From Haematococcus lacustris (lineage: Eukaryota > Chlorophyta > Chlorophyceae > Chlamydomonadales > Haematococcaceae): 64,000 nt of DNA. This document shows positions 11,393 to 60,264 of the stretch, piece by piece. Location: NCBI GenBank assembly GCA_030144725.1, contig JASKMD010000008.1:18876676-18940675 (forward strand). The letters run 5' to 3'. The translations under genes and the position numbers were made by a program. The notes below the pieces were generated by a model. It ran no database searches and was not told where the DNA came from. It saw only the letters and a program-made list of their open reading frames with translations. Within the stretch, counting starts at the first letter, position 1. The number at the start of each line of letters is the position of its first letter.

Positions 11393-11518
11393 TTAGTGTA
11401 CTGTCTTGGCCAAGTACTCCGCATGTGCTTTCTCCCAGGCCGCGTACTCAGCTGGCTTGTCGTAGCTGCTGGCGCCAGTCCGGCTGTTGTGGTAGTAGGT
11501 CACAAGAAAGCGCGGGTC
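11393..11518 (-). other. C-terminal WW-like domain of the PLAT protein (last exon)
   Basis: The final 41 residues include FLVTYYHNSRTGASSYDKP and end in a Trp/Lys/Glu-rich helix before TAA at 11393. The spacing YYHNxxTGxSSYxKP matches the second and third strands and terminal proline of a WW domain, but the second signature Trp is Tyr and no first Trp sits at the usual distance. It may be a degenerate WW domain or a convergent hairpin. The preceding exon, 11755-11930, is charged with no recognised domain. Confidence 0.5.

Positions 11519-60264: not shown

Follow-up and report, generated by a model that had tools for sequence, protein, structure and literature searches.

The window, a 64,000-nucleotide stretch of Haematococcus lacustris DNA, very probably carries a single fused gene that encodes an EML-type beta-propeller, 20 PLAT domains and a WW-like tail. 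The gene is read from the minus strand, which had not been given before, and it extends past the window edge, the visible part being most of it. As a single minus-strand gene it is predicted from open frames and from relatives. The sequence-only reading had proposed one gene at 11393..60264. One long chain of 20 PLAT domains was recovered at the level of the gene model, but the 5' end is not at 60264, and an EML part lies upstream.

Gene model

All the PLAT landmarks were located on the minus strand, the sole match to a landmark pattern on the plus strand being a weak GGGSSS. The final model comprises 95 exons and encodes 2969 residues, the stop not counted. Its 94 introns have 91 GT and three GC donors, all 94 acceptors are AG, and keeping an intron would disrupt the frame in 90 of the 94 cases. 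Between 11393 and 60264 there are 90 modelled exons, with 8232 coding bases out of 48872, in agreement with the roughly 90 exons in compatible phases that had been suggested for this interval. The GC donor at 23498 is probably an error, as QJQ45_009677, the public H. lacustris protein model, continues to 23457. Furthermore, the linkers between units 8/9, 15/16, 18/19 and 19/20 are poorer in our model than in the public one, whose versions map in the window; the model figures given here are those of the version with our own linkers at these four places.

Some elements of preliminary models were discarded. What the first model had as a 13-aa "unit" separating units 6 and 7 was reclassified as linker, and end exons near 9335 and 286 were spurious and were removed by restricting later runs to 59136-11390. 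Two very short exons, of 1 base at 55023 and of 13 bases at 38227-38215, were swapped by hand for better acceptors at 54241 and 37826, respectively.

Searches by tblastn with the relatives from Dunaliella tertiolecta (P0001) or Chlamydomonas schloesseri (P0005) each covered 80 of the 94 exons of the model as it stood before the linker exon was inserted, and neither protein gave a match at E < 1e-3 on the plus strand. The best matches step backwards 9 (P0001) and 16 (P0005) times, as paralogous units would make them do. With the EML-free protein P0071, 54 exons were covered with 27 backward steps, and with Lingula P0019, 48 exons with 26.

The best database match is the public H. lacustris protein QJQ45_009677 (P0008, 1898 aa), which has 1669 letters in common with the model. 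It begins in unit 8 and contains 13 units by our own PLAT profile. Its first residues and some linkers disagree with the model; in addition, it apparently retains two introns and leaves out two stretches. Units 1-7 and the EML part are absent from this entry, and therefore searching with it misses the fusion. Among the best 120 of 1047 protein matches, mostly animal LOXHD1, none from H. lacustris corresponded to the EML half.

The EML end and the 5' start

Five exons at 63665-60886, upstream of the PLAT array and in the same orientation, encode the second beta-propeller of EML proteins. The joined exons scored 232.6 bits with PF23414 (cut-off 90), which places this part in the EML family, and hand-joined pieces matched EML1 (PDB 4ci8) at E 4.6e-42. 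The exons from the EML part to the first PLAT unit are as follows.

63526..63665, minus strand: EML second beta-propeller exon, first visible (gene continues beyond the window), spliced by eye and frame-checked; PF23414
62602..62737, minus strand: EML beta-propeller exon, frame-checked splicing; PF23414
61864..61979, minus strand: EML beta-propeller exon, frame-checked splicing; PF23414
61455..61589, minus strand: EML beta-propeller exon, frame-checked splicing; PF23414
60886..61036, minus strand: last EML exon, ending ..MQWRLLASATDDVVVDKPQ, with a phase-0 GT donor; Dunaliella counterpart WRILPESQDEVIQIKPQ, E 0.033
59917..60015, minus strand: linker exon between EML and PLAT, GQEQYVVYQAPRRNRVAADPLALGPEAGTASIL, in phase 0 at either end; matched by the D. 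tertiolecta linker in tblastn, E 7e-5
58781..58989, minus strand: exon joining the linker to PLAT unit 1; D. tertiolecta linker match, E 2e-8

Because the window stops in a GGGT array, neither HELP nor the first propeller is visible, and this first half of the EML domain would be located past position 64000.

The linker exon (60015-59917), which encodes EQYVVYQAPRRNRVAADPLAL, aligns by blastp to residues 614-642 of D. tertiolecta P0001 (E 6e-4), 16 residues behind the EML propeller of that protein (319-598), and to residues 424-452 of D. salina P0009 (E 4e-4), ahead of its first PLAT. Moreover, the D. tertiolecta linker matches the EML-end, linker and PLAT-1 exons in order (E 0.033, 7e-5 and 2e-8, respectively), and the phases of these three exons are compatible. 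The PLAT-1 exon presents an open frame without a Met ahead of its donor.

The same region could be read as two neighbouring genes, an EML gene ending at a TGA after VGGPGTACHDAWRDT near 60838 and a 20-PLAT gene starting from the ATG at 60264. Read-through of the last EML donor does hit a stop after 15 residues, and the frame that starts with the ATG at 60264 continues without a stop into the linker. Nevertheless, the 83-aa N-terminus that would start there gave no blastp match at E 1 or better among P0001-P0294, whereas the next 33 residues, in the linker, match two Dunaliella proteins, so a start at 60264 is disfavoured and unlikely. The relatives are also annotated as fused, and PLAT domains occur in 22 of the 71 proteins matched by an EML region. 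Taken with this evidence, two separate genes seem very improbable, and the fused gene is the reading followed below.

The PLAT array

A spliced-alignment program written for this analysis started from a single typed generic PLAT consensus and detected 20 PLAT units, all on the minus strand and spread between about 58.8 and 12.6 kb. A profile retrained on the units found gave 4130 bits for the minus strand, 28.6 for the plus strand and 17.2-20.0 for three shuffles, a contrast that is partly circular because the profile was trained on the units themselves; the shuffle controls were run with this retrained profile only. The Pfam profile PF01477, which provides an independent test, recognised 20 stretches with 1171.7 bits in a 2936-aa model. 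Each of the 20 units exceeded the cut-off of 23 bits (range 45.6-82.9), which assigns them to the PLAT/LH2 family. Hence, the proposed 20 PLAT units in one chain are borne out at the level of the gene model, and the weak PLAT scores for most units that had been named as evidence against them were not found.

56846..58812, minus strand: PLAT unit 1 (GAGCNS, Asp lost), 56.6 bits
52825..56815, minus strand: PLAT unit 2, 63.9 bits
50942..52788, minus strand: PLAT unit 3, 79.8 bits
49162..50914, minus strand: PLAT unit 4, 68.2 bits
46653..48721, minus strand: PLAT unit 5, 62.6 bits
44937..46622, minus strand: PLAT unit 6, 68.5 bits
43193..44924, minus strand: PLAT unit 7, 57.3 bits
40934..43180, minus strand: PLAT unit 8 and linker GVGGELGMLQ (linker end per public model), 65.5 bits
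37773..40717, minus strand: PLAT unit 9, 57.8 bits
35586..37769, minus strand: PLAT unit 10, 82.9 bits
33182..35543, minus strand: PLAT unit 11, 77.3 bits
29723..32742, minus strand: PLAT unit 12 (intron with a 27-bp x 60 tandem array), 66.8 bits
28101..29680, minus strand: PLAT unit 13, 68.9 bits
25601..27632, minus strand: PLAT unit 14, 76.9 bits
23457..25576, minus strand: PLAT unit 15 (C-terminal linker per public model), 79.4 bits
21665..23089, minus strand: PLAT unit 16, 58.4 bits
20149..21350, minus strand: PLAT unit 17, 72.7 bits
17138..19315, minus strand: PLAT unit 18 (divergent C-terminal group), 45.6 bits
15252..17134, minus strand: PLAT unit 19 (divergent C-terminal group), 46.7 bits
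12642..15257, minus strand: PLAT unit 20 (divergent C-terminal group; intron with an AGGC x 273 array), 70 bits

Unit 1 had been described as lacking the aspartate of the GAGTDA motif, and it does read GAGCNS. This loss is probably recent, since unit 1 of D. tertiolecta and of C. schloesseri keeps the residue. By the letters, the GAGTDA Asp is present in 19 of the 20 units and the HDNSG Asp in 11. The PDB PLAT sequences nearest to a profile of eight of the 20 units are those of 11R-lipoxygenase and polycystin-1.

The C-terminal tail

Three exons close the gene model.

12416..12701, minus strand: end of unit 20 and Ala/Pro-rich linker (gene model)
11755..11930, minus strand: first part of the WW-like tail (..CEWQQFTQALPK) (gene model)
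11393..11518, minus strand: last exon, DPRFLVTYYHNSRTGASSYDKPAEYAAWEKAHAEYLAKTVH and stop; QJQ45_009677 ends identically

The tail has the pattern W..., YYHN..T..S.YDKP. A WW-like end had been suspected from the letters and is indeed present at 11930-11393, scoring 17.2 bits with the WW profile PF00397, below the Pfam cut-off of 26.9. A loose WW pattern fits seven of the 25 family proteins examined, including that of H. lacustris; by eye, nine more end in a WW-like manner and nine do not. PF00397 is listed for the Tetrabaena protein P0007.

Relatives in green algae

Relatives were taken from a protein search in which 7979 word-sharing candidates were scored and the best 120 of 921 matches were used. 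Exactly 20 PLAT units at E < 1e-3 were counted in six of the ten closest of these (P0001-P0010), and 21, 22, 13 (QJQ45_009677) and 18 in the other four. C. schloesseri P0005 (HYH02_000301, 3803 aa) combines HELP (45 bits), two propellers (147.7 and 339.3 bits) and 20 PLAT units, and D. tertiolecta P0001 (3451 aa) combines two propellers (119.9 and 306.5 bits) and 20 PLAT units. The latter is listed without a contig; its accession series presumably comes from transcriptomes, in which case this protein would represent a transcript of the fused gene.

When the EML region of P0005 was searched against proteins of roughly 2100-6650 aa (2032 candidates scored), 71 matches were obtained, all of them listed, and 22 of these carry PLAT domains. 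Twelve of the 22 bear an organism name, and all twelve are from what we take to be green algae; the set includes Scenedesmus and Tetradesmus, in which flagella are rarely observed. The shorter EML-PLAT proteins have 9-15 PLAT units, 12-14 in the organism-named ones. P0121-P0151 are EML-type proteins of 2100-2900 aa from oomycetes and others, without PLAT by profile and several with EF-hand families.

The open part of PubMed Central yielded no described EML-PLAT protein. The sequence-only reading knew of no described algal protein with 20 PLAT domains in one chain plus a WW-like tail; the number is new for the literature searched, but 20-unit algal proteins are already present in the databases, where green-algal EML-PLAT proteins bear automatic names only.

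Unit order and array history

The best unit-to-unit matches fall on the unit of the same number in 20 of 20 cases in D. tertiolecta, in 19 in Astrephomene, Edaphochlamys and Pleodorina, and in 18 in C. schloesseri and Gonium. Collinearity was assessed by a chain test on centred similarities with 200 shuffles. All three 20-unit relatives compared were collinear with this array (z 10.7-12.3, none of the 200 shuffles being as good), and so were Myrmecia (13 units), Tetradesmus (12), Pedinophyceae (14) and P0020 (13), at z 7.1-7.7. Three further EML-PLAT arrays gave z 5.2, 3.7 and 2.8, and P0168 was not significant in this test (z 0.9; 29 of 200 shuffles as good). Regarding its parts and its unit order, both of which match the fused relatives, the predicted protein qualifies as a member of a green-algal EML-PLAT family.

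In a FastTree phylogeny of units 8-20, rooted at the midpoint, units 10, 12, 14 and 16 are placed with 8 on one side (support 0.739) and units 9, 11, 13, 15 and 17 on the other (0.963). From the shorter arrays, the units in positions 11, 12 and 13 mostly group with units 17, 18 and 19. Support is low at several inner nodes, in some cases under 0.5. The simplest reading is that an array of about 14 units may have expanded by three two-unit duplications, and the array points to a growth path by two-domain steps. Units 18-20, which had been singled out as divergent, branch apart from 8-17 in this tree; under a 14-unit origin they would represent the original C-terminus of the array, and their divergence would thereby be accounted for. 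As for introns, a phase-0 position at column 46 is common to seven units, and intron positions were given no weight because the two-unit pattern is not cleanly followed.

Repeats and other features

The introns contain several near-perfect tandem arrays, namely AGGC x 273 at 13427-14517, a 27-bp unit x 60 at 30853-32478, GCAG x 126 at 49209-49713 and GGTG x 66 at 53014-53279. GTTAGG/GTTAGT repeats, near the TTAGGG telomere type, occupy 35195-35340 in an intron of unit 11. Furthermore, related open-frame pieces of a repeated element (..WVDRDCNAALNTQRIGESKWRPLELCYWPEQ..) were recognised by eye in introns at 55194-56042 (plus strand), 41344-42156 (plus strand) and 23714-24382 (minus strand). They were considered as remnants of a Fanzor/TnpB C-terminus, an idea that gained no support: neither Pfam nor NCBIfam showed a match for the two plus-strand pieces, nor did PDB for 55194-56042. 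The short repeat CCATGTGTATG occurs in introns at 24295, 42455, 56159, 59417 and about 62400; ..GGAACACTAAGTGTGGACCTCTACAAAG.. lies near two of the copies read, and three copies adjoin the open-frame pieces just described. Behind the 3' end of the gene, on the opposite strand, 9759-11075 (plus strand) is an open frame of 438 aa with a weak EF-hand match (15 bits, below the cut-off).

Possible function

Since one chain pairs EML with PLAT, the simplest role would be that of a tether, and we predict, at about an even chance, a very long microtubule-membrane tether at the base of the cilium. EML proteins bind microtubules. The EML propeller would dock on doublet or root microtubules, the PLAT string would lie along the membrane or extend to it, and the WW-like end would bind a proline-rich partner. 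PLAT domains are described as binding lipids or proteins in an excerpt of PMC8051682.

The literature on Chlamydomonas offers a possible point of contact. According to part of PMC4888484, POC2 and MOT51, which carry lipoxygenase homology domains, are present in transition zones isolated from cells, and the listing is repeated in a passage of PMC6970386. POC2 localises to the transition zone, and a POC2 antibody was used, in the text available from PMC6215392; it is Cre10.g436000, "polycystin-related", in an extract of PMC5430608, where poc2 lines also feature. Among the best 120 of 921 matches, Chlamydomonas (two species), Edaphochlamys and Pleodorina have one EML-PLAT array and one EML-free array each. 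As three volvocine lineages show one of each, POC2 and MOT51 may be these two array types, and either of them may belong to the EML-PLAT family.

The ciliary site is open to argument. The sequence itself names no cilium, EML proteins act on many microtubules, and the presence of Scenedesmus and Tetradesmus in the family weighs against it. The fused protein could serve as a scaffold elsewhere in the cell, such as the cortex or cytoplasmic membranes; this seems rather unlikely, given that the two Chlamydomonas lipoxygenase-homology proteins found in the literature searched, putative family members at most, are both listed from transition zones. Contact with the membrane may be questioned as well. 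The loss of the GAGTDA Asp in unit 1 and the presence of the HDNSG Asp in only 11 of the 20 units weigh against a membrane tether, although 19 units keep the GAGTDA Asp; the excerpt of PMC8051682 moreover describes PLAT repeats as binding not only lipids but also proteins. An array acting as a protein-binding ruler or spring between partners, with no membrane contact, is nevertheless doubtful, as the nearest PDB PLAT sequences belong to lipoxygenases and polycystin-1. The PLAT domains of these proteins bind membrane lipids.

The tether at the base of the cilium could be extended to a whole ciliary-gate connector of green algae, in which EML would clamp the doublet, the 20 PLAT units would span to the membrane and grip it, and unit number (from about 14 to 20) would set the span. 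Such a candidate Y-link backbone is a speculative proposal and, taken whole, an improbable one. With a microtubule-type domain and a long membrane-type array in one chain, the predicted protein is a candidate microtubule-membrane link at the cilium base, and POC2 and MOT51 gain a domain reading that can be tested.

Comparison with known systems

The gene had been ascribed a LOXHD1 architecture. Both proteins are long PLAT strings, and the LOXHD1 of animal hair cells has 15 PLAT repeats according to an excerpt of PMC8051682. The animal entries among our best 120 of 921 matches show 16-17 units by our own profile and no EML part in their Pfam listings, whereas here an EML beta-propeller and a conserved linker lie upstream of the array in the gene model. 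Moreover, the units are not one-to-one ordered orthologs: no collinearity was detected with the LOXHD1-type arrays of Lingula, turtle, Trichoplax and EukProt P0111 (z 0.3, -0.7, -1.1 and -0.5, respectively), while the positive controls, Lingula versus Trichoplax and Lingula versus P0111, gave z 11.0 and 8.3. Orthology to LOXHD1 is thus rejected by the unit collinearity test. No common unit order was detected with Pelomyxa either (z -1.0); the P. schiedti protein P0011 has 3775 aa, 28 PLAT units by profile and no EML domain listed.

A second type of algal array, represented by the volvocine P0066, P0069, P0071 and P0117, has 17-18 PLAT units and no EML in the Pfam listing. The chain test took in two of these four, P0069 and P0117, which were weakly collinear with this array (z 2.2 and 2.1; two and five of 200 shuffles as good). 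P0069 gave z 1.0-1.9 with three animal arrays and 3.3 with P0111. Chlamydomonas POC2 (Cre10.g436000) and MOT51 are likened to the present protein through their lipoxygenase homology domains, and could belong to the EML-free family or elsewhere.

With EML1 and the EML family, the gene has the second beta-propeller (PF23414) in common, HELP and the first propeller being seen in C. schloesseri; to our knowledge, known EML proteins carry no PLAT array. The array is collinear with its chlamydomonad relatives and not with LOXHD1, which argues for a distinct EML-PLAT family of green algae, set apart from the LOXHD1 with which automatic names confuse it. C. schloesseri HYH02_000301, E. debaryana HYH03_002273, D. 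tertiolecta A0A7S3VHN2 and others likewise present EML propellers, 20 ordered PLAT units and a WW-like tail.
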